From Collimonas arenae (GTDB lineage: Bacteria > Pseudomonadota > Gammaproteobacteria > Burkholderiales > Burkholderiaceae_D), in NCBI RefSeq assembly GCF_000786695.1, contig NZ_CP009962.1, positions 2,914,001 to 2,978,000 on the forward strand: a DNA stretch of 64,000 nt, given 5' to 3'. Both the position numbers and the translations under genes were made by a program. The notes under the pieces were generated by a model. The model did no database searches. It saw only the letters and a list, made by a program, of their open reading frames with translations, and was not told the origin of the DNA. Positions 33,607 through 48,270 of the stretch are shown here, piece by piece. Each line of letters begins with the position of its first letter. Position 1 is the stretch's first letter.

Positions 33607-33974
33607 GTAACTTCCTCAGAATAGTGTTTAAGCCGTGACTGCCATTGCCACCCTTTATTTTTATGCAAGCGGCTGAAGCACGCCCCCACAAAATTTTTAT
33701 AATATCTTAAATTTAAACAGACAGGTCTGTCATATAATTGAAATATCAGAATCTGGTATAAACGCCAATGATAGCTGTTCCGCACCGTTTTATGCCGTTT
33801 TCAGCCAATTTTGACTGCCGGCAATTAACTTGCATCAGCGACAATAAATACTGAGCTAATATACTGTGCTGTATATCGTACCGATTGCAACAGACTTTGT
33901 CCGGCAGTCGCTTTGCCATGTTGTGTGCTATCGGCTTATTGCATGTCTAGTAATGTAACCACCACCTCAAATCA
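33607..33974. other. 368-base divergent region between the diiron oxidase and TetR genes
   Basis: AT-rich, and should hold both promoters. On the minus strand TATTAT (about 33697-33702) could be the -10 element for the oxidase gene, with the palindrome at 33717-33730 over its -35 area. No small gene was recognised. Confidence 0.55.
33717..33730. promoter_or_regulatory. Palindrome ACAGAC-AG-GTCTGT, probable TetR operator
   Basis: Six-base arms around a two-base centre. The site lies 111 bases before the diiron oxidase start, beside a candidate -10 box, and 245 bases before tetR. The shape (short central spacer, GAC/GTC core) is common for TetR-family operators. Confidence 0.6.
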
Positions 33975-35270: not shown

Positions 35271-36518
35271 TTATATGACTTTCTCTTCGCGCAACAGCGC
35301 GATGTAATCCTTGCCATAACCGAGTTGCGCCAGCACCTCTTCGGTATGCTCCCCCAACAAAGGGGAACGGGTGACTTCGGTCGGGCTGTCCGACATCTTG
35401 ATCGGGTTGCCTACCGTCAGATATTTGCCGCGCGTCGGATGATCGACTTCTACAATCGTGCCTGTCTCGCGCAGCGATGGCTCTTCAGCGATTTCCTTCA
35501 TCGACAGGATCGGACCGCAGGGAATATCGTACTGGTTCAGGATATCCATCGCCTCGAACTTGGTTTTGGTCATGGTCCATTGTTCGATGCGGGCAAAGAT
35601 CGGCTTCAGATGCAGCAGCCGCGCCGCTGGCGTCGCGTAGGCGTCATCGGTGATCCAGCCCTCCTCGCCGATCACCTTGCAGACCGCCGGCCAGACCGCG
35701 CCCTGGGTGATGAAATAAATGTAAGCATTGGGGTCGGTTTCCCAGCCTTTGCATTTCAAGATCGATCCGGGCTGGCCGCCGCCGGAAGCATTGCCCGCGC
35801 GCGGTACGGCCTCGCCGAATTTACTGTCAGGATATTGCGGATATTCCTGCATGCTGCCGACACGTTCCAGCCGTTGCTGGTCGCGCAGCTTGACGCGGCA
35901 CAGGTTAAGCACAGCGTCTTGCATCGGCGCCAGCACTTTCTGGCCACGGCCACTGGCATGACGTTGATACAGAGCGCTGACAATACCAAGCGCAAGATGC
36001 AGGCCGGTGCCGCTATCGCCGATCTGGGCGCCAGTGACCATCGGCGGGCCATCATCGAAACCTGTCGTGGACGCTGCGCCGCCTGCACACTGGGCGACGT
36101 TCTCATAGACCTTGCAATCTTCGTACTTGCCGGGGCCGAAGCCCTTGACCGAGGCAACGATCATGCGCGGGTTCAATTCCTGGATACGCTCCCAGCTAAA
36201 GCCCATCCGATCCAGCGCACCCGGTGCGAAGTTCTCTACCAGTACATCGCACTCCTTGATCAGGGTTTCCAGCACCTCCTTGCCCTTGGGGTTCTTGGTA
36301 TCCAGCGTGATGGAACGCTTGTTATGGTTGAGCATGGTGAAGTACAAACTATCGACGCCGGGAATATCGCGTAACTGGCCGCGTGTCGCGTCGCCCTCGC
36401 CGGCCCGCTCGACCTTGATGACATCGGCGCCGAACCAGGCCAGCAGTTGAGTGCAGGTCGGCCCTGACTGGACATGGGTGAAGTCAAGAATGCGCACGCC
36501 ATCCAGTGCTTTGCTCAT
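35271..36518 (-). CDS. frc: Formyl-CoA:oxalate CoA-transferase paralogue 1 (class III)
   Basis: 415-residue class III CoA transferase. The catalytic aspartate is Asp168 in [10 protein letters not shown] (Asp169 in Oxalobacter formigenes Frc), and the HVQSGP and [13 protein letters not shown] blocks match. The active-site glycine loop reads GNASGGGQ instead of GNAGGGGQ, so the first loop glycine is Ser. The loop covers the aspartyl intermediate, so substrate choice may differ from the second copy. It is last of four leftward genes (TPP enzyme, frc2, PAS, this gene), 60 bases after the PAS gene. It is more divergent than the copy at 37127. Confidence 0.9.
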
Positions 36519-36578: not shown

Positions 36579-37028
36579 TTAGCTGGATTCAGTCGCCTGC
36601 GCCGCTACCCTGGCCTCCAGTTCCGCCAGGCGTTTGCGCAAGGCGCGGTCCTCGGCAAAGCGGCTGCTTTCATCGCGGATAACGGCGACGATAGCCGCCA
36701 CCTTATGTTCGGGCGTATACAACAAGGCGACGGTAAACGCGATCGACAAAGTGTGGCCATCCTTGTGCACCGCCGGCACGCGCAGCACATCATTGCCGTA
36801 GCGCGTGATTCCGGTATCCATGGTTTTTTGATAGCCATCCCAGTGACGCTGGCGCTGGCGTTCCGGAATAATCAAATCGAGCGACTTTCCCAACGCTTCT
36901 TCACTGGTAAAACCGAACATCCGTTGCGCGGCTGGATTCCACAAAGTGATGGCGCCTTTGGCGTCGGAAATCACGATGGCATCGCCGACGGCTTGCACCA
37001 GTTGCCCGAGATCGATTGCAGTACTCAT
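36579..37028 (-). CDS. Single PAS-domain protein inside the frc operon
   Basis: 149-residue cytosolic protein: one PAS domain (about residues 8-120; VQAVGDAIVISDAKGAITLWN, MFGFTSEEALGKSLDLIIPE) and a short coiled coil (ALRKRLAELEARVAAQ). There is no kinase, cyclase or DNA-binding domain. Start ATG at 37028 has AAGGAG nine bases upstream. It lies between two formyl-CoA transferase genes, with 98 and 60 bases on either side. Stand-alone PAS proteins sense ligands, redox state or oxygen and act through partners; the partner here is unknown. Confidence 0.88.
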   Translation of the reverse strand: MSTAIDLGQLVQAVGDAIVISDAKGAITLWNPAAQRMFGFTSEEALGKSLDLIIPERQRQRHWDGYQKTMDTGITRYGNDVLRVPAVHKDGHTLSIAFTVALLYTPEHKVAAIVAVIRDESSRFAEDRALRKRLAELEARVAAQATESS

Positions 37029-37126
37029 GGTCGTACTCCTTATCCAAGTCAAGTGATACAAATGTAAAGACGGCGTCCGCCATGGACGCCGCCCCTCCTG
37101 CCTATCCGACGTTCATTACAGCATGT

Positions 37127-38377
37127 TCAGACCGCCTGCGCACTATGCAATTCCGCAATCTGTCCCGCACTGTAGCCGAGGCCGGCCAAGACTTCGTCGG
37201 TATGTTCGCCCAGCAGCGGCGAACCGGTGATTTCCGGCGTCAGGTCGGAGAATTTGATCGGACTGCCGACGGTGAGATATTTGCCGCGCTCCTTGTGATC
37301 GACTTCGGTGATGGTGCCGCTGGCCCGCAGTGATGGATCATTCGCCAGTTCTTTCATGGTCAGCACCGGAGAGCAAGGGATATCGAATTTGCGCAATATG
37401 TCGACGGCTTCAAACTTGGTCTTGTCCTGCAACCAGGCTTCGATCGTATCGAAAATTTCAGTGATGTGCGGCTGGCGCGCCTTCGGCGTGTTATAGGCCG
37501 GATCGTCTATCCACTGTTCCTTGCCGATTGCCTTGCAAATCGGCGCCCAGGCATGGCCCTGGATCGTGAAATAGATATATGCATTCGGATCTTCCTGCCA
37601 GCCTTTGCATTTGAGCACCCAGCCCGGCTGCCCGCCGCCGCCGGCGTTACCGCCGCGCGGCACCACGTCGCTGAAGGTGCCGTGCGGGTATTGCGGATAT
37701 TCTTCCAGGAAACCGAGGCGATCCAGCCGTTGCTGGTCGCGCAGCTTGACGCGGCATAGGTTGAGAACACTGTCCTGCATCGAGACCGCTACCCGCTGGC
37801 CCTTGCCAGTCTTGTCGCGGCCAATCAGCGCAGTCAGGATGCCGATCGCCAGGTGCATGCCGGTATTGCTGTCGCCCAGAGCGGCTGCGCTGACAGTTGG
37901 CGGACCATCCCAGAAACCGGTAGTAGACGCAGCGCCACCAGCGCATTGGGCGACATTTTCGTAGACCTTCAAATCGTCGTAATGGTGGCCGTCGCTGAAA
38001 CCTTTGACCGAGGCCACGATCATCTTCGGATTGAGTTCGTTGATACGCTCCCAGGAAAAACCCATGCGATCCAGCGCTCCCGGGCCGAAATTTTCCACCA
38101 GCACATCGGATTCCTTGATCAGTTTTTCCAGAACCAGTTTGCCTTCCGGCTTTTTGGTGTCCAGAGTCAGCGAACGCTTGTTGCTATTCAACATAGTGAA
38201 GTACAGGGCATCCACATCGGGAATGTCGCGCAGCTGGGAACGGGTGACATCGCCCGAGCCGGGGCGCTCGACCTTGATCACGTCGGCGCCGAACCAGGCC
38301 AGCAATTGCGTGCATGCCGGGCCTGCCTGGACGTGGGTGAAATCGATAATACGAATGCCGTCTAGTGGTTTGCTCAT
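37127..38377 (-). CDS. frc: Formyl-CoA:oxalate CoA-transferase (canonical copy)
   Basis: 416-residue class III CoA transferase very close to Oxalobacter Frc: [12 protein letters not shown], Asp169 in [11 protein letters not shown], and the intact glycine loop [10 protein letters not shown]. It moves CoA from formyl-CoA to oxalate, making oxalyl-CoA for decarboxylation. It lies 64 bases downstream of the thiamine-diphosphate enzyme in the same leftward operon. Start: ATG 38377 with CAGGAGTTTGAA upstream. With the OxlT-type antiporter at 43232 this gives the main evidence for oxalate metabolism here. Confidence 0.95.
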
Positions 38378-38441: not shown

Positions 38442-40202
38442 TTATTTGTACATCGTTTGCGCCATGGTTCCCGGTGCGTACACGGCAGGATCGACCCAGA
38501 TATTCACCACGGCGCAACGGCGTGTCTTGCGCACGGCGTCGCGCGCCCTTTGCAAAGCGCCGGCGATCTGCGCCGGATCGCGTACTTCTTCGCCATGACC
38601 GCCTAGCATCTCGGCGAATTTTCCGTAAGGGATATCGCTCAGCAGATTGCCGACGTTGCCCCGCTCTTCGCCGTACTTGGCCAGCTGGCCGTAGCGGATC
38701 TGGTTCATTGCCGAGTTATTGCCGATGACAGCGATGTAGGGCACGCCAAAGCGGTTGGCGGTTTCCATGTCGAAGGAAGTCATGCTGAAAGCGCCATCGC
38801 CGTAGTAGCACATCACTTCCTTCTCAGGATTGGCAAGGCCCGCTGCAATTGCAAAGCCGGTGCCGACCCCCAAGCTGCCAAGCGCACCCGGATCCATCCA
38901 TTGCCCCGGATTACGCGGCCGCACTGCTTGCGCCGAGATCGTGACAACGTCGCCGCCGTCGCCGATGTAGATGGTGTCATCGTTCAAGAATTCGTTAATT
39001 TCATAGGCCACGCGGTAAGGATGGATCGGCGAGCTGTTTGATTTGAACAGCGGCATCAGCTTTTCGGTGGCGGTCGCTTCTAGTTGCTGCAGCTGCTTCA
39101 TCCAGGCACGCCGCTTTTCATGGGCACCCTTGTTGATGCGGCCGCTGGCGGCTTGCAATACTGCGCCAAGAATGGTGCCGGGATCTCCCACCAGTCCGAG
39201 CGTGATATCGCGATTCTTGCCCACGGTACGGTAATCCTGGTCGATCTGGATCACTTTGGCGTTGAGCCCAAGGCGTTTGCCGTAACCCATGCGGAAATCG
39301 AAAGGTGTGCCGACAATCAGGATCACATCGGCTTTATCGAAACCTTCGCGGCGGGTACGGTCGAAGTGGTGCGGATCTCCCGGCGGCAGCAAACCGCGCG
39401 ACGCACCGTTGAAATAGGCCGGAATATCCAGGCCGCGCACCAGGTCGATCGCCTCCTTGTGGCCACGCGAAGACCAGACCTGGCCACCGTATAGCACCAC
39501 AGGACGTTCCGCCTGCACCAGGATATCGGCCAGCTTCTCGATATCGGCAACGTCGCCCAGCGATTTGACTGAAGCGCGATATTGGCCGGCGGCCGGAATC
39601 ACCGCTTTGCTAATCTCGATTTCACGATCCAACACGTCGCGCGGGATTTCCAGGTAAGCCGGACCAGGCGCGCCGGCAAAGCACGCACGGATCGCCATCG
39701 ACACCATGTCGGCCACGCGTTCCGTGGAGCGCACACCTTCAGAAAATTTGGTGATCGGCCGCATCATTTCTGTATGCGGCAAATCTTGCAGCGATCCCAT
39801 CATGTGCTGGGTGATACCGCCCTGGCCGCCGATATGCAGCACCGGGCTTTCCGAGCGAAAAGCGGTAGCAATGCCGGTGACGGCGTTGGTGCAACCCGGG
39901 CCGGCGGTGGTAACCACCACGCCCAGCTTGCCGGTCTGGCGCGCATAGCCGTCGGCGGCGTGGGCCGCAACCTGCTCATGGCGGACATCGATAATGCGGA
40001 TGCCTTCGTCGATGCAACCGTCGTAGATATCGATGATATGGCCGCCGCACAGGGTAAAGATGGTGTCCACACCTTCGTTCTTCAGCGCCCGGGCGACCAG
40101 ATGACCGCCGGACACCACGCCGGCGTCCCGGCTCTTGCGTTTGAGCGTATCGTCAGCGGTCGTACTGGTTGCCACTTTCGGCTCGGATATCACAGCTGCC
40201 AT
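38442..40202 (-). CDS. Thiamine-diphosphate lyase, HACL/ILVBL-like, in the place of oxalyl-CoA decarboxylase
   Basis: 586-residue ThDP enzyme. It has the catalytic glutamate (Glu76, RHEQ), PGPAYLEIPRDV and the ThDP motif GDGAFSM...GNN. By operon position it should decarboxylate oxalyl-CoA to formyl-CoA. From memory of the Oxalobacter enzyme, the active-site Tyr-Glu pair (120-121) is here Leu138-Gln139 (GSLQDLPHTEMMRP), and the Tyr483 region reads GNNSAMNQIRYGQL. Both resemble 2-hydroxyacyl-CoA lyases/ILVBL more than true Oxc. Thus either a divergent Oxc or an enzyme for another acyl-CoA. Start: the second of two adjacent ATGs, with AGGAGG four bases away; an ATG 19 codons upstream has no ribosome site. 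A regulator box lies 85 bases upstream. Confidence 0.8.
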   Translation of the reverse strand: MAAVISEPKVATSTTADDTLKRKSRDAGVVSGGHLVARALKNEGVDTIFTLCGGHIIDIYDGCIDEGIRIIDVRHEQVAAHAADGYARQTGKLGVVVTTAGPGCTNAVTGIATAFRSESPVLHIGGQGGITQHMMGSLQDLPHTEMMRPITKFSEGVRSTERVADMVSMAIRACFAGAPGPAYLEIPRDVLDREIEISKAVIPAAGQYRASVKSLGDVADIEKLADILVQAERPVVLYGGQVWSSRGHKEAIDLVRGLDIPAYFNGASRGLLPPGDPHHFDRTRREGFDKADVILIVGTPFDFRMGYGKRLGLNAKVIQIDQDYRTVGKNRDITLGLVGDPGTILGAVLQAASGRINKGAHEKRRAWMKQLQQLEATATEKLMPLFKSNSSPIHPYRVAYEINEFLNDDTIYIGDGGDVVTISAQAVRPRNPGQWMDPGALGSLGVGTGFAIAAGLANPEKEVMCYYGDGAFSMTSFDMETANRFGVPYIAVIGNNSAMNQIRYGQLAKYGEERGNVGNLLSDIPYGKFAEMLGGHGEEVRDPAQIAGALQRARDAVRKTRRCAVVNIWVDPAVYAPGTMAQTMYK

Positions 40203-40286
40203 CATTCCTCCTGTTGTCGGTTGTCTCTTGGGTTTTCTTGTTGCACTGCTTGATGCCATCTTAGCTACTGGGCCCTCTACTCTTCA

Positions 40287-40300
40287 TTGACCTCGGTCAA
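40287..40300. promoter_or_regulatory. TTGAC-CTCG-GTCAA box, copy 1 (Crp/Fnr-type)
   Basis: Perfect inverted repeat in the divergent promoter between the ThDP/frc operon (centre 91 bases from its start) and the Crp/Fnr-type gene (66 bases). Two more copies lie at 44675 and 46748. The layout fits a dimer of the FNR/CRP family, with TTGA half-sites. Confidence 0.75.
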
Positions 40301-40359
40301 GTTTTGCCGCATCATCTTCGGGGATCCCTAGCGTCGCCGACTATCGTTGAACTTCTTAC

Positions 40360-40968
40360 ATGAGCCTCATAGAAAACCACTCAGAGAAAAACATCATTCG
40401 CGTGCAACTGCGTCAAAATAATGTTTTGAAGGCATTGAGCGAAAGCGAAATGCTTGAGCTGGAATCCCAGCTGATCGTGGTGGATGGCGGCAAAGGCGAA
40501 ATCCTGCTGCGCCAGGGCGTACATGAAATGGAGCAATATTTCATCCTCGACGGCATACTCAAGCGCGTCGTCACCAATCAGCAAGCCAAGGAAATGATCC
40601 TGCGCTTTGCCGACGAGCGCGACATGGAGACCAGCTACGCCGCCTGGCGTCTGAAAACCCCCGCGCCTTACAGCATCGTCTGCGTCTCCAAGGCGCGGGT
40701 TGCCAAACTGTCATTGCAACAATGGGCGGCCTTCATGGAGCGCCATCCCCAGCTCAAACAAACCTTTGAATATGAAGTGATGCGCCTGATGAGCGAGATC
40801 ATGGCGCACACCATTACCCTGCATCTGCTGGATGCTCCCGGCCGCGTGCACAGGTTTTTACGCAAACACGCCGAGCTCTATGACCGCATTCCTAAAAAGG
40901 AATTGGCGACCTATCTCAACATCTCCGCGGAAACCTTGAGCAGATTGAAGCATCAGGGAAAAATTTAA
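40360..40968 (+). CDS. Crp/Fnr-family regulator of the oxalate-type regulon
   Basis: 202-residue regulator with a cyclic-nucleotide-binding-type beta-roll (about residues 20-120), a dimer helix and a C-terminal helix-turn-helix. The recognition helix reads SAETLSRLKHQ. Glu191, Ser194 and Arg195 give the E-x-x-S-R pattern by which FNR reads TTGA. It lacks the N-terminal cysteine cluster of FNR, so it is not an iron-sulfur oxygen sensor of that type; the signal is unknown. It is divergent from the ThDP/frc operon across a TTGAC-N4-GTCAA box, suggesting autoregulation and control of the operon. Confidence 0.88.
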   Translation: MSLIENHSEKNIIRVQLRQNNVLKALSESEMLELESQLIVVDGGKGEILLRQGVHEMEQYFILDGILKRVVTNQQAKEMILRFADERDMETSYAAWRLKTPAPYSIVCVSKARVAKLSLQQWAAFMERHPQLKQTFEYEVMRLMSEIMAHTITLHLLDAPGRVHRFLRKHAELYDRIPKKELATYLNISAETLSRLKHQGKI

Positions 40969-41012
40969 GCCCTCATACACCCTTCCGCCCTTCCGCCGCA
41001 CCCCGGCAACCC

Positions 41013-41039
41013 TGACAGGCTGTCAACTCTGACAGCTGT
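41013..41039. promoter_or_regulatory. Tandem TGACAG palindromes upstream of the secreted pair
   Basis: TGACAG-G-CTGTCA (41013-41025, perfect) is followed five bases later by TGACAGCTGT (41030-41039; ACAGCTGT is self-complementary). They lie 130-160 bases before the gene at 41171 and may be an operator. No regulator for them is known. Confidence 0.45.
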
Positions 41040-41170
41040 TTATCCCTGCTACGCCATCGTAGATTGGTGGAGCCGCTGGCGATTTTCCTTTGCGCCCTAG
41101 TAGTGCTCAAAGACCGAGTCAGCGCGCTTTTCCAGGAAATTTGTCGATCACAAATGGGAGGAAATCAACG

Positions 41171-41911
41171 ATGCACGTAAAACCTGTCGTCCAGGCGCTG
41201 CTGTTCAGCGCCACCTTGCTGGCCATGCAAACGCCGCTCCATGCACAAGCAAGTCTCACGCAAACGCCACAGCAACTCCAGAAAACCGAAGGAAACGATG
41301 CCAGCGCTGCTGCCAGCCGCGGTTTCGCGGAATTCGTGCAATATCAGATCCAAGCGCATTCCGGCAGCTTGCCTGAAGGCTTTCCACTCGACGTGACGGA
41401 TGTCCAGGATCTGAAAGACGCCAGTATCGGCTACGGCTTTCCGGTCTACACGGTCGATCCGAAAGATCTGTTGGCGGGCCGTAGCGACTTCAGCGCCATG
41501 GCAAAATCAACCGGGACCTGGCGCTTTATCATCAACCGCAATCAGCGCCCGATTGGCCTGGTGACCGTGGAAAAGGTCAACGGCACATGGCAAACCGTTG
41601 CCTATGGCGCTGCAGGTTTGTCCAAGGATGTGGATGCGCTGACGCGCTTCCATGGCAATGCCGATCATTCCAACCTGCGCTTCATACGGATATATCAAGC
41701 CCGCTCCGACTTTCTCGAAGTTGGATCAAACAATGGCGCAACAGCCCGCTTCGCGCCTCTGCAGTCGGCCCGGGAAACACTGTTGCTGCAACAGCGTGCC
41801 AACAAAGCCGGCAATGCGTCCGATGCAGCAACCAGCGGTTTGCTGGATGCAAGCCAGTTCGTGGAACCATTGCGCGCAGCAGTGAAGGCCAATATCGCTA
41901 ACTTCCGTTGA
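41171..41911 (+). CDS. Secreted protein of unknown function upstream of a papain-like protease
   Basis: 246-residue protein, not recognised. It has a signal peptide (VVQALLFSATLLAMQTPLHAQA) and then a mixed alpha/beta region. GYGFPVYTVDPKDLL and TWRFIINRNQRPIGLVTVEKVNGTW look like the two strands of a small domain that reads as a periplasmic or secreted module. Start ATG 41171 has GGGAGG upstream. The protease gene follows 85 bases later on the same strand, so the two may be co-transcribed. The protein could be an inhibitor, chaperone or partner of the protease, but nothing in the sequence proves this. Confidence 0.75.
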   Translation: MHVKPVVQALLFSATLLAMQTPLHAQASLTQTPQQLQKTEGNDASAAASRGFAEFVQYQIQAHSGSLPEGFPLDVTDVQDLKDASIGYGFPVYTVDPKDLLAGRSDFSAMAKSTGTWRFIINRNQRPIGLVTVEKVNGTWQTVAYGAAGLSKDVDALTRFHGNADHSNLRFIRIYQARSDFLEVGSNNGATARFAPLQSARETLLLQQRANKAGNASDAATSGLLDASQFVEPLRAAVKANIANFR

Positions 41912-41996
41912 ATCGTATTGACGGCAGTTGTTGTCATTAGCCTGCCTGTCCGGCAGCGTCGACTAAATAATCTGAAGTATATTTTCAGGAGTTAAC

Positions 41997-42593
41997 GTGA
42001 ATAATGTGAAAAGAATCTCCAGCCGCGTGATCATTAGCATCGGCCTTTTTTTGCTGGCGCCAATCGGATTCGCCGAATCAAAAACAATCAATGTCCCGCT
42101 GACCACGCAAGAACACAGCGAATGGTGCTGGGCCGGCGCCAGTAAAGCAGTTCTGAATTTCTACAAAAAAAGCCCAAGCCAGTGCAGTATCGTCAACTGG
42201 GCGTTTGGCATCAATTACGCCTGCGGCAACAACAATTTCAACTGGAACAGCCAGGCCAATCAGCCCAACAGCATGTATGGCGGAAACGGCAGTGTGCAAG
42301 ATATTCTCAACGCCTGGGGCGTGCCGAATACTGCCTTGACAAACTATCTGTCATGGGCGCATGTGGTCAGTGACATCGGCGCCAACCGGCCATTTGTCAT
42401 GCGCTACGGCTGGACCAATGGCGGCGGCCATATCATGGTCGGCCGCGGCTATGAGACCGTGAATGGTGTGAATTACCTCTATATCATGAACCCTTGGCCG
42501 GGCGAAGGCATGACGTACGGCACCTACAATTCGACGGTTTCGGACTACGACCATCAATGGACCCATACCCAGCGCATGAACATCAGCGGCTAG
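41997..42593 (+). CDS. Secreted papain-like cysteine protease (AvrRpt2/C70-like), GTG start
   Basis: 198-residue exported protease. A signal peptide (IISIGLFLLAPIGFA) precedes a papain-like core. The triad is visible: Cys44 in EWCWAGASKAVLNFY, His145 in GGGHIMVGRGYE and Asn165 in YIMNPWPGEG. This resembles the AvrRpt2-type family known from plant-associated bacteria, though many members are uncharacterised secreted proteins. The start is GTG at 41997, with AGGAG six bases upstream. It follows the unknown secreted protein at 41171. Targets could be host or competitor proteins; this is inference. Confidence 0.85.
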   Translation: MNNVKRISSRVIISIGLFLLAPIGFAESKTINVPLTTQEHSEWCWAGASKAVLNFYKKSPSQCSIVNWAFGINYACGNNNFNWNSQANQPNSMYGGNGSVQDILNAWGVPNTALTNYLSWAHVVSDIGANRPFVMRYGWTNGGGHIMVGRGYETVNGVNYLYIMNPWPGEGMTYGTYNSTVSDYDHQWTHTQRMNISG

Positions 42594-42758
42594 TCCTATA
42601 ACCAAATTGCACCTGTGAAATCATCCCCGTTCTAACCGCACCGATTGCGGCCATGGTGTTGTATTCCGCGCCTGTCTGCTTATATTGCAGCGCAAGATAT
42701 TGACAAGTGACATACCAGTTATCGGATAATGTCATTAGAAGAATTAATATTCAAACTC

Positions 42759-42764
42759 TATAAT
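42759..42764 (+). promoter_or_regulatory. Perfect -10 hexamer TATAAT before the small protein gene
   Basis: TATAAT lies 45 bases before the ATG at 42809. The -35 region is weak (TTAGAA at 42735). It implies a short leader of about 40 bases. Confidence 0.45.
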
Positions 42765-42808
42765 GCAAAGCAGCATAAGAAGATTTTTACTTTGACAGGA
42801 GCATCTCC

Positions 42809-42982
42809 ATGACTACAGCAACCAATAGCTTCACCTCCGCGAACGGTACAGGTTTTTCGGCAAAAGTGGCAGGCATTGCCTACGCTGTAGCCGCTGTCGT
42901 GTTCGGCATCAGCTTGCGCGAATCGCTTGATGCGGAAAGCAGCAGCGACAAGGCCAACGCTGCCTATACCTGGGGCATGTAA
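42809..42982 (+). CDS. 57-residue small protein with one hydrophobic segment
   Basis: A short gene with its own AGGAG site seven bases before the ATG, a consensus -10 box upstream and a clear terminator downstream. The protein has a polar N-terminus, one hydrophobic stretch (AGIAYAVAAVVFGISL, residues 21-36) and a short acidic/polar tail ending YTWGM. It could be a small single-span membrane protein. I do not recognise the family. Codon use is like that of its neighbours. Confidence 0.7.
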   Translation: MTTATNSFTSANGTGFSAKVAGIAYAVAAVVFGISLRESLDAESSSDKANAAYTWGM

Positions 42983-43044
42983 TTTCCCGGCAGCAGCCAA
43001 TGCGGTAGCGTCACCGACCCACCGCATGTAAAGCGCAGTACAAG

Positions 43045-43074
43045 ACAGTCAATCTCAGATTGGCTGTTTTTGTT
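43045..43074 (+). terminator. Rho-independent terminator of the small protein gene
   Basis: A ten-base stem with one G-T pair (43045-43054 with 43058-43067) and a three-base loop is followed by TTTTTGTTT. It lies 62 bases after the stop at 42982. Confidence 0.85.
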
Positions 43075-43231
43075 TGTACTCATGGTTTAAATGCGGTTCT
43101 TGCGGCAAACTGTATTGCAAAATTTCTGCGTCGCACCAGAATCAAGTTATGTCGCCTTCTTATAACATTCTGAGCAGAGGCGCGTATGCCGCACAACGTC
43201 GCCGTGATTAAAAGATGACAGAATAGCCAAC

Positions 43232-44551
43232 CTAAGCCGAGTGTTCAATCACCGAAGAACCGTTGACGCGCTTCTCCGCCACTGGTGCAACGACGACCTC
43301 CGGCACCGACTTTTCCACCCAGCGCTTGCGCATCGGCGCCAATACCAACTTGGCGGAGAGACCGGCGACGATGGTAATAGCGGCTGCAATGATGAAGACC
43401 CGATCCCAGGCACCACCTGCCGACAGCACAGAAGTCAGCGGCACCAGCAAGGCCGCCGTTCCCTTTGCGGTGTATAGCGTACCGGCATTCCCCGATGCAT
43501 ATTTACTGCCAAAGGTGTCGGCGCAAATCGCTGGAAAAATGGAAAATATCTCGCCCCAGAACAAGAATATCAGGGCGGCGAACACCATGAATGCATAGGG
43601 ATTGTGGCCGTATTGCATTAAGCCCAGCAAAGCAAGTCCTTCGCCGACAAAGACAATGAACATGGTATTTTCGCGACCGATCTTGTCTGAAATAAAGCCG
43701 CACAGAGGACGAGTGAAACCGTTGCACAAGTTGTCGATGGAGAGCGTCATGGTCAGCAGTGGCAAGGTCACGCCAAGCAAGGTGATCGGTAATTTGGCGA
43801 TACCGAAATCCTTGGCGATCGGCGCCAGTTGCGCCGTTGCCATCAGACCGCCTGCTGCCACCGCCACGAACATGAGGTACATCACCCAGAACACCGGGGT
43901 CCTGATCATTTGTCCGGCCTTGTAGTCGATCTTGGTCATGGTGAGTTTTTTCGACACCACAATCCCTTTCGGCGGCGCCGGCCTGACCATCAGCATCGCC
44001 AGCAGGAAAATACAGACGCCCTGCAAGATGCCAAAAAACAGGAAAGCGCGTTCATAGCCGGAGCTCTGGATCATGTTGGCAATCGGGATCACTGTCACGG
44101 CGGCGCCGGCGCCAAAACCCGCAGCCGTCATGCCCGCCGCCAGGCCGCGTTTATCCGGAAACCATTTCAGCGCGTTACCGACGCAAGTGCCGTACACGCA
44201 ACCGGCTCCGATGCCGGCGATAATCGCCGCCGCATACAGCTCGAACAGGCTGGTCGCCATCGAATTGATCACCCAGCCGGCGGCGGCAAAAATCGCGCCT
44301 GCCGCAATCACCGGGCGAGGCCCGAATTTGTCGACCAGCCAGCCTTCGATCGGCACCAGCCAGGTTTCGGTCACAATGAAAATTGAGAATGACAGTTGAA
44401 TCGCCGCCTGCCCCCAATGGTGCTTGGCATCCATCGGCGTCACGAACAAGGTCCATGCGTACTGCAAATTCGCGACCAAGCCCATGCAGATGATGCCGAT
44501 AATCAGTTGAATCCACCGATTAGCGGCACTCTTGGAATTACTGGTTTCCAT
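43232..44551 (-). CDS. oxlT: OxlT-like oxalate/formate antiporter (MFS)
   Basis: 439-residue MFS transporter. It shares with Oxalobacter OxlT the blocks YAWTLFVTPM, LVDKFGPRP, ALKWFPDKRGLAAGMTAAGFGAGA and NGFTRPLCGFISDKIGR. The two charged residues that bind oxalate, Arg272 and Lys355 in OxlT, correspond to Arg281 (FTRP) and Lys363 (YTAKGT). It would exchange oxalate for formate across the inner membrane. Start ATG 44551 with AGGAGA eight bases upstream; the longer frame adds no sense. A TTGAC-N4-GTCAA box lies 124 bases upstream, linking it to the regulator at 40360. Confidence 0.92.
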   Translation of the reverse strand: METSNSKSAANRWIQLIIGIICMGLVANLQYAWTLFVTPMDAKHHWGQAAIQLSFSIFIVTETWLVPIEGWLVDKFGPRPVIAAGAIFAAAGWVINSMATSLFELYAAAIIAGIGAGCVYGTCVGNALKWFPDKRGLAAGMTAAGFGAGAAVTVIPIANMIQSSGYERAFLFFGILQGVCIFLLAMLMVRPAPPKGIVVSKKLTMTKIDYKAGQMIRTPVFWVMYLMFVAVAAGGLMATAQLAPIAKDFGIAKLPITLLGVTLPLLTMTLSIDNLCNGFTRPLCGFISDKIGRENTMFIVFVGEGLALLGLMQYGHNPYAFMVFAALIFLFWGEIFSIFPAICADTFGSKYASGNAGTLYTAKGTAALLVPLTSVLSAGGAWDRVFIIAAAITIVAGLSAKLVLAPMRKRWVEKSVPEVVVAPVAEKRVNGSSVIEHSA

Positions 44552-44674
44552 GCGTCTTGTCTCCTGATATTTTAGGCTGCTTATATTTTTATCTGTTGCG
44601 ACAGCTGACGGGATTTCGGCAATGCGCACGCAGGGTGCGATGCCTGATTTTGCGGTGCTTTTCCAGACCATTCC

Positions 44675-44688
44675 TTGACGCCGGTCAA
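44675..44688. promoter_or_regulatory. TTGAC-GCCG-GTCAA box, copy 2, before oxlT
   Basis: Perfect inverted repeat centred 130 bases before the oxlT start. Its flanks (CC before, GATTG after) are also shared with copy 3 at 46748; over 21 bases only one base differs. The rest of 44552-44824 has no gene. Confidence 0.75.
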
Positions 44689-44824
44689 GATTGTGCGCCG
44701 CTGGCGGATTTAGAGGCTATTGCAAACACAGATGGCTAGGCGCTTCGACGAAGACAGTACGAGTAGTACGACCAGGAGAAGCAACAACGCCAGGTTAAAT
44801 TTACAACAGTCTCTTAGTTTTCTG

Positions 44825-45835
44825 CTATGCCACCCGCCGTAACTGCAACTGTCCGCGCTCTTCTTCAAAAGTCTTTCCCAACAACTTCACCAGCGCGTAG
44901 ACCGTATCCAGCTGCGGCGTCGGCGTTGCGGTCAGGCGTCCCAGCTCAATCACAGATCCCACCAACGCATCGATCTCCAGCGCCCTGCCCGCTTCCACGT
45001 CTTTCAACATCGACGTCTTGTGCTTGCCGATTTTCTCGGCGCCAGCGATGCGCTTGTCCAAAGGCACGCGGAAACTGATGCCAAGCTTGTGTGCAATCGT
45101 CTGCGCCTCCGTCATCAGCGCCGCAGCAAGTGTGCGCGTCAAGGAAAACTGGCAGATATCAACCAGGGTTGCGTGCGTCAAGGCGCTGATCGGATTGAAA
45201 CTCAGGTTGCCCCACAGCTTGAGCCAGATTTCGGAGCGGATGTCATCCAGCACAGGCGCCTTGAAACCGGCCTTGGTGAAGGACGCCGAAATGCGCAATA
45301 CGCGTTCGCTGTGAGAACCGTCCAGCTCGCCCAAAGGAAAGCGTTCACCCTCGAAATGGCGCACCACGCCAGGCGCGACCAGTTCGGAAGCCGGATATAC
45401 CACGCAACCGATGACGCGCGACGGCGGGATCTTTTCGCCTATCGCACCGCTCGGGTCCACCATGCTCAAACGGCTGCCTTCCAGCGTGCCGCCGGTTTTG
45501 TAGAAATACCAATATGGAATACCGTTCTGCATGGTGACGATAGCGGTTTCCGGCCCCAACAGATGGTGCAACTCGTGGCTCACCGCTTCCAGTTGATGCG
45601 CCTTCAGTGCGAGTATCACTAGATCTTGCCGGCCTGCCTGCCGATAATCATCGCTTGCATTGACCTGGCCGGCGACGTGCTCTGAACCGTCTTCCATGAT
45701 CAGCTTCATGCCGTTGCGACGAATAGCCTCGAGATTGGCGCCGCGCACCATGAAGGTCACGTCCTCTCCCGCCAGCGACAATTTGGCGCCGACATAGCCG
45801 CCTATCGCTCCCGCTCCCACAATTGCGATTTTCAT
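44825..45835 (-). CDS. Ketopantoate reductase-family NAD(P)-dependent oxidoreductase (PanE/ApbA)
   Basis: 336-residue protein with the Rossmann start MKIAIVGAGAIGGYVGAKLSLAG and the ApbA_C helical domain (GNLSFNPISALTHATL, conserved Asn). Classical PanE reduces 2-dehydropantoate, but many paralogues act on other 2-keto or branched acids. I chose ATG at 45835. It lies 46 bases after the fumarylacetoacetase-like gene on the same strand, so the two form an operon. The TTGAC-N4-GTCAA box before that operon suggests a role with the oxalate genes, not pantothenate synthesis. Confidence 0.88.
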   Translation of the reverse strand: MKIAIVGAGAIGGYVGAKLSLAGEDVTFMVRGANLEAIRRNGMKLIMEDGSEHVAGQVNASDDYRQAGRQDLVILALKAHQLEAVSHELHHLLGPETAIVTMQNGIPYWYFYKTGGTLEGSRLSMVDPSGAIGEKIPPSRVIGCVVYPASELVAPGVVRHFEGERFPLGELDGSHSERVLRISASFTKAGFKAPVLDDIRSEIWLKLWGNLSFNPISALTHATLVDICQFSLTRTLAAALMTEAQTIAHKLGISFRVPLDKRIAGAEKIGKHKTSMLKDVEAGRALEIDALVGSVIELGRLTATPTPQLDTVYALVKLLGKTFEEERGQLQLRRVA

Positions 45836-45881
45836 GATTGCTCCGTAGTTGAAATAAGAAATCCGGGAAGCCTTGCCTTGG

Positions 45882-46649
45882 CTATTCAAAGCGATTGCTT
45901 AATCTTCCTATGCCTTCAATCTCGATCTCCACCGTGCTGCCTGGTTTCATGGAGCCGACGCCGACAGAGGTGCCGCATAAAATCACATCGCCGGCGTACA
46001 GCGTCATGTCGTGGGATATCAGGCTGACCAGTTGCGCGGACGAGAACAGCATGTCGCTGACCGGATAGTCCTGCCTCAACTCACCATTCAATATGGTCTT
46101 GACTCTCAGCGTGCCGGGATCAATGCCACTGGCCACCACTGGCCCGAAAGGACAGAAGGTATCGCAGCCTTTGGCGCGCACCCATTGCGCGAACGACGGA
46201 TCGCGATTGAGGACGTCGGCCGCAGTGACATCGTTAGCGCAGGTATAGCCAAAAATATAGTGTTCCGCGTCCGCCTGAGAGACCTGCCTGGCAGTCTTGC
46301 CGATCACGATTCCCAGTTCGCCTTCAAACACCACCTTGCCTCCGGACGCGGGCTGGCGAATGATTCCTTGCGGCTTCAGATATGAATTTGGCGACTTGAT
46401 CAGGTACAGGGGTTCCTCTGGCCGCGACAGGTTCAGCTTGGCGCCCAGCGCGCCGAAGTTATTCCATAGCGCCAGGATTTTGCTGGGTGACGTCGGCGTC
46501 AGCAGATCGACTTCGCCGGCATTCAGATAAACGCCGCTTGGCTCCGGATGTTCAAACATGGAACCATCCCAAAGCTGGATGCGTTTATCCTCAAGCGTGC
46601 CAAAGCGGATATGGTCCTGATACATGAAACTCAGCCAATGCCTTATCAT
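45882..46649 (-). CDS. Fumarylacetoacetate hydrolase-family protein
   Basis: 255-residue FAH-C family hydrolase. The metal-site glutamates appear in VVFEGELGIVIGK and the conserved block FGYTCANDVTAADVLNRDPSFAQW is intact. Members cleave fumarylpyruvate-like diketo acids or decarboxylate oxaloacetate. Start is uncertain: ATG at 46649 (MIRHWLS) has a GAGAGA upstream, with other candidates at 46661 and 46625. It is the first gene of a unit with the PanE-like gene. The regulator box at 46748 is 105 bases upstream. A link to supply or use of oxalate-related diacids is inference. Confidence 0.87.
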   Translation of the reverse strand: MIRHWLSFMYQDHIRFGTLEDKRIQLWDGSMFEHPEPSGVYLNAGEVDLLTPTSPSKILALWNNFGALGAKLNLSRPEEPLYLIKSPNSYLKPQGIIRQPASGGKVVFEGELGIVIGKTARQVSQADAEHYIFGYTCANDVTAADVLNRDPSFAQWVRAKGCDTFCPFGPVVASGIDPGTLRVKTILNGELRQDYPVSDMLFSSAQLVSLISHDMTLYAGDVILCGTSVGVGSMKPGSTVEIEIEGIGRLSNRFE

Positions 46650-46747
46650 TTTTTCTCTCATGGAAATCACCGATGATCAGCTGAAGCTACAGCTATGGCG
46701 CACAAGATAAGCTGGCCTGATTGTGCGGGGACTTGTTGCAAGGAACC

Positions 46748-46761
46748 TTGACGACGGTCAA
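46748..46761. promoter_or_regulatory. TTGAC-GACG-GTCAA box, copy 3, before the FAH-like operon
   Basis: Perfect inverted repeat between the 115-residue protein gene and the FAH-family gene (centre 105 bases from its start). It shares extended flanks with copy 2. Confidence 0.75.
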
Positions 46762-46819: not shown

Positions 46820-47167
46820 TCAGATACCGATTTCGGCGCGCTGAACTTCAGCCCAGTTCACGTTGAGACTTGGCCGGGAACCGCAAGCATCGAGCTTTTC
46901 CAGGCAACGGATCCTGGCGCTTTCAATTGCACCGATTAAAAAATCCGCGTCGTAGGCAGTCAGCAAATGCGGCTGATGCAGCTCGACATAAGCGCCGACC
47001 AAGTGTTTGCCGGCGCAATGCGCCAACAAAGAGTTATAGGTATCGGCATCCCAATGCCAGCTCAGGCCAAGTTCGTAAAAGGCCGCGTTGTAAGCAAACA
47101 GCGATGCTTCTTCGGATGGGGCAAGGGATGGAACAATAAAAGCCGGATCGATCGTGATGCTAGCCAT
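46820..47167 (-). CDS. Small protein of unknown function (115 residues)
   Basis: Not recognised. The ATG at 47167 has GGAGG about nine bases upstream, so it is a real gene. The protein is soluble, mixed, with aromatic clusters (FAYNAAFYELGLSWHWDADTY) and no signal peptide. It is divergent from a LysR regulator (start 47323) with 155 bases between, a layout that often means the LysR controls it. Downstream lies the boxed FAH/PanE operon, 170 bases away. Confidence 0.7.
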   Translation of the reverse strand: MASITIDPAFIVPSLAPSEEASLFAYNAAFYELGLSWHWDADTYNSLLAHCAGKHLVGAYVELHQPHLLTAYDADFLIGAIESARIRCLEKLDACGSRPSLNVNWAEVQRAEIGI

Positions 47168-47273
47168 GATGGTTTTCCTCCAGGTGAAGCGCGTCAGCGC
47201 TTGGATTCATCCGCATCGCTCTGCAGATGTGAAACCATGGTAGGGAAACTCTGCGATCGGAAACAGTTAAAGT

Positions 47274-47285
47274 TTTTACGTAAAA
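47274..47285. promoter_or_regulatory. TTTTACGTAAAA palindrome between LysR and the 115-residue gene
   Basis: A perfect 12-base palindrome 38 bases before the LysR start and 107 bases before the small gene. It has a place and symmetry suitable for a LysR-type site, but other readings are possible. Confidence 0.35.
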
Positions 47286-47322
47286 CGATTAGCAATCACT
47301 TATGCGTTGATGCGCAAGCAGA

Positions 47323-48270
47323 ATGAAAAACGCCACTTTGCGACAACTGAAAACCTTCGAAACGGTGGCACGCCATCTAAGCTATTCGCGCGCGGCGGAA
47401 GAATTGCATCTGACCCAGCCGGCGGTTTCGCTGCAAGTCAAACAGCTTGAGGAACATGCAGGCATGCCGCTGTTTGAACAGCTGGGAAAGAAAATCTACC
47501 TGACCGCCGCCGGCATTGAGATGCTGCGGCACGGCCGGATAATCATCCAGCAGTTTCGCGAGACGGAAGACGCCATGGCGCAACTGCGAGGAGTCGCCGG
47601 CGGCAGGTTGAATGTGGCAGTGATCAGCGCCGGCGATTATTTTTTCCCGCGGTTGCTGGCGGAATTCCAGCGCAGCCGTGAGAATGTCAGCCTCAAGCTC
47701 ACTGTCCATAATCGCGAAGAACTGCTGCGCAACCTGCACGACAACCTGACCGACCTGGCGATCATGGTGCGGCCACCTGAAGATGCAGGCATGATCCGGC
47801 AAGCATTCGCGCCCCATCCTTACGTTATCGTGGCCTCACCCGAGCATCCGCTGGCCACCCGTAAAAACATTTCAAGAACCCGTTTGCTGCGTGAACCGTT
47901 TATCGTGCGGGAGCGTGGGTCGGATACCTGGCAGTCGATGCAGGAGAGTTTTGGCGAGCAAATTGAACAGATCAAGGTCGCCATGGAGATCAAGAGTTTT
48001 GAAACCATCAAGCAGGCCGTGATCGCCGGCATGGGGGTAAGCTTCCTCTCGGTCCATACAATCAGCCTGGAGCTGCAGGTTGGCAATCTGGTGGTGCTGG
48101 ATGTCCAGGGCTTTCCGGCGATGTTGAACTGGTACGTGGTACATCGTCAGAACAAGCAGTTGCCGCCGGTGGCGATCGCCTTCGAGAACTTCCTGATGAG
48201 CGACGGCGCTGCGCTGATTGAAAAATTTACCCGTTTCAAACTGGGGCACAGGCACGGCTCTTCTGGATAG
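47323..48270 (+). CDS. LysR-family regulator, CbbR/CysB-like
   Basis: 315-residue LysR-type regulator. The N-terminal helix-turn-helix (TLRQLKTFETVARHLSYSRAAEELHLTQPAVS) and the type-2 periplasmic-binding-like effector domain are complete. The opening resembles the CbbR group. No CO2-fixation gene is near, so the name should not be taken as function. It is divergent from the small protein gene at 46820 and convergent with the crotonase gene (four bases between stops). Confidence 0.92.
   Translation: MKNATLRQLKTFETVARHLSYSRAAEELHLTQPAVSLQVKQLEEHAGMPLFEQLGKKIYLTAAGIEMLRHGRIIIQQFRETEDAMAQLRGVAGGRLNVAVISAGDYFFPRLLAEFQRSRENVSLKLTVHNREELLRNLHDNLTDLAIMVRPPEDAGMIRQAFAPHPYVIVASPEHPLATRKNISRTRLLREPFIVRERGSDTWQSMQESFGEQIEQIKVAMEIKSFETIKQAVIAGMGVSFLSVHTISLELQVGNLVVLDVQGFPAMLNWYVVHRQNKQLPPVAIAFENFLMSDGAALIEKFTRFKLGHRHGSSG

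Follow-up and report, generated by a model that had tools for sequence, protein, structure and literature searches.

The inverted repeat TTGAC-N4-GTCAA stands before three gene units of an oxalate-type cluster in Collimonas arenae, which raises the question of which protein reads it and to what effect. Among the open-licence papers listed in our searches, no title or abstract opening names a transcriptional regulator for growth on oxalate through frc/oxc. In E. coli, EvgAS also regulates frc/oxc homologues (yfdXWUVE), but it is a two-component acid-resistance system of an unrelated protein type. CstR, according to the accessible part of its description, is a response regulator and differs in kind from a Crp/Fnr-type protein (PMC13344952). 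In our analysis, the repeat and the product of an adjacent gene, a small protein of the Crp/Fnr type, appear to form a conserved system that switches on oxalate breakdown in many soil bacteria as well as in the gut bacterium Oxalobacter.

Three putative operators in an oxalate-type cluster

The window, by which we mean the whole stretch of 64,000 nt that was analysed (contig NZ_CP009962.1), contains three exact copies of the repeat against 0.04 expected, and none of 100 shuffles reached three. Operator 1 (TTGACCTCGGTCAA, 40287..40300) lies between the ThDP gene and the crp-like gene, operator 2 (44675..44688) before oxlT and operator 3 (46748..46761) before the FAH-PanE unit. No other exact copy occurs in the window; allowing one mismatch adds two sites, at 33811 and 61197. 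Operators 2 and 3 have common flanks, CCTTGACG[C/A]CGGTCAAGATTG, with one difference in 21 bases. The initial annotation had described three perfect copies, their places in front of the three units, the absence of a further copy in the window and the shared flanks; the exact scan, the gene positions and the sequence itself bear out each of these points, and the observation was confirmed as stronger than had been claimed. The motif's frequency in its own genome, proposed as a check, gave a divided answer. Across the 5.64 Mb the exact motif occurs at four sites and a backwards control pattern likewise at four, so the genome-wide copy number is at chance level and unremarkable; three of the four copies nevertheless fall inside 6.5 kb.

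Operator 1 is followed on the minus strand by genes for a ThDP-dependent enzyme (38442..40202) and for two formyl-CoA transferases, frc1 (37127..38377; TIGR03253, 722.8 bits, cut-off 504.2) and frc2 (35271..36518; TIGR03253, 723.4 bits), and on the plus strand by the gene for a Crp/Fnr-family regulator of 202 aa (40360..40968). Operator 2 precedes oxlT, encoding an oxalate/formate antiporter (43232..44551, minus strand; TIGR04259, 640.7 bits, cut-off 335). Operator 3 precedes genes for a FAH-family protein (45882..46670, minus strand; PF01557; start GTG 46670 or ATG 46661) and a PanE/ApbA-family reductase (44825..45889, minus strand; PF02558 and PF08546). Two starts were corrected from the sequence, ATG 40202, which has AGGAGG ahead of it, being the more likely start of the ThDP gene and ATG 44551 that of oxlT. 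PanE2 of Methylobacterium extorquens is described, in the accessible text of the source, as a putative oxalyl-CoA reductase (PMC8411744), and by analogy the PanE-like gene of the window may encode the same activity. A lone PAS-domain protein gene (36579..37061, minus strand; PF00989) stands between frc1 and frc2, an arrangement also seen in several relatives. The region 46820-48270 holds a small protein, p9 (46820-47167; no Pfam or NCBIfam match), and a divergent LysR gene, which accompany many oxalate loci.

Judged by family models, the ThDP protein is not an oxalyl-CoA decarboxylase (Oxc): it scores 244.7 bits against NF006721, whose cut-off is 557, and its best models are also below their cut-offs (PRK05858, 447 versus 587 bits; 2-hydroxyacyl-CoA lyase, 354 versus 600). 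At E 1e-150, nothing in the C. arenae genome matched TIGR03254 (oxalyl-CoA decarboxylase). Oxc was found in 50 of the 195 family genomes and the window-type ThDP enzyme in 16; among the ten frc-bearing Collimonas genomes, one (G061) has Oxc and the other nine all carry the window-type enzyme. The Collimonas ThDP gene beside the regulator is possibly a replacement for Oxc, or possibly has a different activity. Replacement is not the whole story, because three genomes (G073, G049 and G183) have both enzymes. In Collimonas pratensis PMB3(1) without biotite, genes named formyl-CoA transferase, oxalyl-CoA decarboxylase and oxalate/formate antiporter are reported to rise together, with log2 fold changes of 1.17, 1.4 and 1.93 (PMC12542777), and we count this joint upregulation in favour of a dedicated regulator.

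Conservation of the operator alongside the regulator gene

Orthologues of the regulator were detected at E 1e-10 in 59 of 195 family genomes (22/44 genera), one of them (G130) a corrupted copy, and at E 1e-20 in 76 of 399 order genomes (29/158 genera). Holders among the matches listed include Collimonas, Herminiimonas, Oxalicibacterium, Noviherbaspirillum, Massilia, Polaromonas, Ramlibacter and Variovorax, the top named matches among those listed being Collimonas at 91-92 percent. We compared 167 loci (the window, 58 from the family, 28 from the order and the best 80 named among the matches listed), which were reduced to 138 distinct loci by removing identical proteins, with the corrupted G130 locus kept in. 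An exact operator lies within 350 bp upstream of the crp orthologue in 112 of the 138, a copy with one mismatch in 19 and neither in seven. In four of those seven loci (L104, L105, L110 and L113), a copy instead precedes the neighbouring ThDP gene, which in L104 is Oxc by model; in the remaining three (L069, L115 and L118) the gene is present and no site was found.

When all five-base arms were combined with spacers of 0-12, TTGAC-N4-GTCAA ranked first of 13,312 palindromes. It is present in 74 of the 96 independent regions (of 166) upstream of crp, and the palindromes at ranks 2 and 3 (55 and 42 regions) are this sequence read in a shifted frame. With any other spacer from 0 to 12, the TTGAC/GTCAA arms do not occur in these regions. 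The 400-bp stretches ahead of pathway genes, 287 kb in total, contain 192 exact copies and the remaining 2.10 Mb of the loci 83, a 17-fold excess with related loci all counted.

The regulator travels with the pathway: regulator and frc/oxc are both present in 57 of the 195 family genomes and both absent from 130, and two genomes have the regulator alone and six frc/oxc alone (Fisher p 1.2e-39, a value that ignores relatedness). The extended motif WTTGACCNNGGTCAAK occurs in 48 of the 59 genomes with the regulator gene versus 37 of the 136 without it, with summed matches of 176 and 60, respectively; the backwards control gave 0 and 21. At frc/oxc orthologues away from the regulator, the site is conserved before oxc and mostly missing before frc. 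Of 17 regions led by a dispersed oxc, one has no upstream sequence, and the other 16 carry an upstream copy that is exact in 14 and has one mismatch in two. Dispersed frc copies not preceded by oxc or a ThDP gene occupy 33 regions, of which seven show an exact site no more than 450 bp away; one other region has an exact copy about 600 bp upstream and one a single-mismatch copy.

As a separate observation, the same-genus genome G130 contains an approximately 11-kb T-depleted stretch (G130:C54, about 297-308 kb; L085:1-10270 and the end of L311), in which, where alignable, A is kept and the other bases are mostly shifted to alphabetically earlier ones. It is probably an assembly artefact; the pattern resembles what would result from settling ambiguous bases in alphabetical order. 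A xenologous origin of this low-identity cluster was considered and dropped, as the stretch looks like a consensus artefact.

The Crp/Fnr-family protein as candidate reader

PF00027, the cNMP-binding barrel, is the single Pfam match of the regulator (34.3 bits, cut-off 27.5), and no Pfam helix-turn-helix model matches its C-terminus. A single predicted structure places helices at 159-169, 179-185 and 190-198, with a mean pLDDT of 66 and an unreliable sensor barrel. Only two PDB sequences matched, 3dn7 (E 5.7e-10) and DNR 3dkw (E 2.4e-4), both alignments extending into the C-terminal helix; 3dn7, a cyclic-nucleotide-binding regulatory protein, and DNR are distant from the regulator, and neither is linked to oxalate in the match records. 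CRP has the PF00027 barrel as well but reads a different operator, and the regulator falls far below the cut-off of the CRP equivalog model NF008732 (27 versus 266 bits). The Glu191-x-x-Ser194-Arg195 signature pointed out by the initial annotation is invariant in 23/23 rows of alignment A1 and 39/39 of A2, as are Arg69, Arg82, His150 and His155; Arg113 is changed in one A2 row. The annotation was also right that an FNR-type cysteine cluster is missing. No conserved cluster for a 4Fe-4S centre exists among the 23 and 39 aligned sequences, eight of the 23 A1 rows have no cysteine at all, and cysteine columns filled in at least half of the rows number none in A1 and two separate ones (43 and 108) in A2. 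This fits a protein that does not carry an Fe-S cluster.

The class II activators of the FNR type (E. coli FNR, Anr and FixK) have in common with this system the Glu-x-x-Ser-Arg helix, a palindrome with TTGA arms and a 4-bp spacer, and an operator near -41.5. The window operator differs in having C/G at the fifth arm position, and the regulator in being linked to oxalate genes and lacking a conserved cysteine cluster. This likeness raises the alternative that the sites are read, in response to oxygen or NO, by a general regulator of the Fnr/Anr/Dnr type whose gene lies elsewhere, and that the neighbouring protein has other targets. The operator is one base per arm away from the FNR site TTGAT-N4-ATCAA, some orthologous loci have TTGAT-N4-GTCAA, and the own genome encodes three other PF00027 matches, all of which would suit such a reader. 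So would four Oxalobacter-like genomes (G006, G137, G158 and G124; loci L287, L289, L290 and L292, in that order) that keep the site before oxc and in which neither protein search nor alignment search detected the regulator gene. However, no PF00027 protein turned up at E 0.001 in G124, G137 and G158, so these genomes show no family member that could take the regulator's place, and across genera the site tracks the crp-like gene and sits in its promoter region. We consider a general regulator of this kind unlikely. The second ThDP gene of G124 and G137 has no site. A Collimonas genome, G186 (L254:9919-12735), keeps the operator with the ThDP and frc genes directly after an enoyl-CoA-hydratase-like gene; crp was undetected genome-wide by protein or alignment search, and oxlT, FAH, PanE and LysR are absent from the 20-kb stretch read.

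Promoter geometry, proposed mechanism and Oxalobacter

Toward oxc, ThDP, frc, oxlT and FAH genes, a TATAAT-like hexamer starts 30 nt from the operator centre. Among 82 deduplicated metabolic promoters (of 137), the mean match at offset 30 is 3.59 of 6, with at least four matches in 55/82, and the best of 2000 shuffle sets reached 1.93; for the frc1 promoters alone (n = 6) the score was equalled in 2 of 2000 shuffles. A -10-like box at this offset puts the operator centre near -42, the position of a class II activator, and the predicted boxes show the class II layout (centre near -41.5, -10 box at fixed spacing). The corresponding boxes of the window, all on the minus strand and with 4/6 matches, are TAAGAT for ThDP/frc (40258..40263), 30 nt from the centre of operator 1, CAAAAT for oxlT (44647..44652), 29 nt from that of operator 2, and CACAAT for FAH (46720..46725), 29 nt from that of operator 3. 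Toward crp (89 deduplicated promoters) the best offset is 16, with a mean of 2.63 of 6 and at least four matches in 31/89; none of 2000 shuffles was as high, the best being 2.15. Offset 16 makes the half-site TTGACC the -35 box of crp with a 17-bp spacer, and in the window the -10-like box is then CATCAT (40310..40315, plus strand). With its -35 box inside the operator, the crp promoter should be repressed when the regulator binds, and the geometry suggests that the metabolic units are activated and crp repressed.

In overlapping the crp -35 box the operator is placed as a repressor site would be, and this would suit a regulator that represses the whole set and is released by a ligand; on the metabolic side, though, the operator takes the place of the -35 box with a -10-like box at class II distance, which makes general repression quite improbable. 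Control by the neighbouring LysR-type protein, with the repeat as its site, is very improbable: LysR and p9 do keep company with many loci and four distinct sites are found 293-357 bp ahead of LysR genes, but the window's p9/LysR intergenic region has no copy, and L042, L061 and L067 have crp, frc and the site with no LysR in the fetched stretch.

Two sets of sites were rejected as promoters of a wider regulon in C. arenae. The fourth exact copy (G000:C1:5030119) covers the Shine-Dalgarno sequence and start codon of an ORF named from its sequence as an ABC-transporter ATPase, and the TTTAAC at offset 30 on its minus side (4/6 matches) would read antisense into the preceding gene. A relaxed pattern, TTGAYCNNNGTCAA, gave five extra genomic sites, none of which reaches four matches at either offset 29 or offset 30.

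From the computed sites, their conservation, co-occurrence and spacing to -10-like boxes, we infer binding, activation, self-repression and ligand as follows. A dimer of the 202-residue protein would bind TTGAC-N4-GTCAA through its Glu-x-x-Ser-Arg recognition helix, the operator replacing the -35 box of the metabolic genes at about 42 bp before the transcription start; from this position the protein, once its signal is present, would activate the ThDP/frc, oxlT and FAH-PanE units in the class II manner. At its own gene, where the left half-site would serve as the -35 box, binding should shut the promoter. The Crp-type barrel would most likely sense oxalate itself or a CoA ester derived from it; oxygen acting via an Fe-S cluster is not proposed. 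We put at roughly 80% the probability that a dedicated Crp/Fnr-family regulator without an Fe-S cluster reads the three operators as a signal-dependent, self-repressing class II activator of oxalate catabolism. Against it we count the five genomes without a detected regulator (G006, G124, G137, G158 and G186), the dispersed frc copies, the three loci without a site and the occurrence of WTTGACCNNGGTCAAK in genomes lacking the gene. The initial annotation had the regulator controlling all three units, itself included. The first part is strongly supported, as far as sequence can tell, by conservation beside the gene, frc/oxc co-occurrence and promoter geometry; self-control is plausible as well, in the direction of repression and not activation.

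Two Oxalobacter genomes show a more elaborate arrangement. In G073, Frc is identical to PDB 1p5h (427/427 residues) and OXC to 2c31 (560/560), which we take to be the Oxalobacter formigenes proteins. Tandem operator arrays precede oxc in both genomes (L281:841-926 and L282:908-993), each of four units spaced 24 bp apart; G073 has two exact and two single-mismatch units, G049 three exact units and one with a single mismatch. A second ThDP/frc-like pair carries an operator too, and in G073 its box at offset 30 reads TATGAT. Upstream of the classical frc gene, neither an exact nor a single-mismatch copy occurs over 1.4 kb (G073) or 1.0 kb (G049). We tentatively suggest that a Burkholderiales oxalate regulator, sensing oxalate or an oxalate-derived CoA ester in its Crp fold, activating in class II fashion and limiting itself, might also govern O. 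formigenes through the four-operator array before oxc, and that in most Collimonas a ThDP enzyme from a different subfamily may have taken the place of its Oxc target. Given a conserved operator, a defined promoter geometry and a likely reader, the way in which oxalate breakdown is controlled can be tested directly, both in soil oxalotrophs and in O. formigenes, a gut bacterium that has been discussed in connection with kidney stones. Exact sites fall at oxalate loci in 5/7 cases in G073 and 6/8 in G049; the others (2/7 and 2/8) were not counted as regulon. One site outside the oxalate loci (L330) has TATATT at offset 30 on one side and, with that box, may be a regulon promoter.
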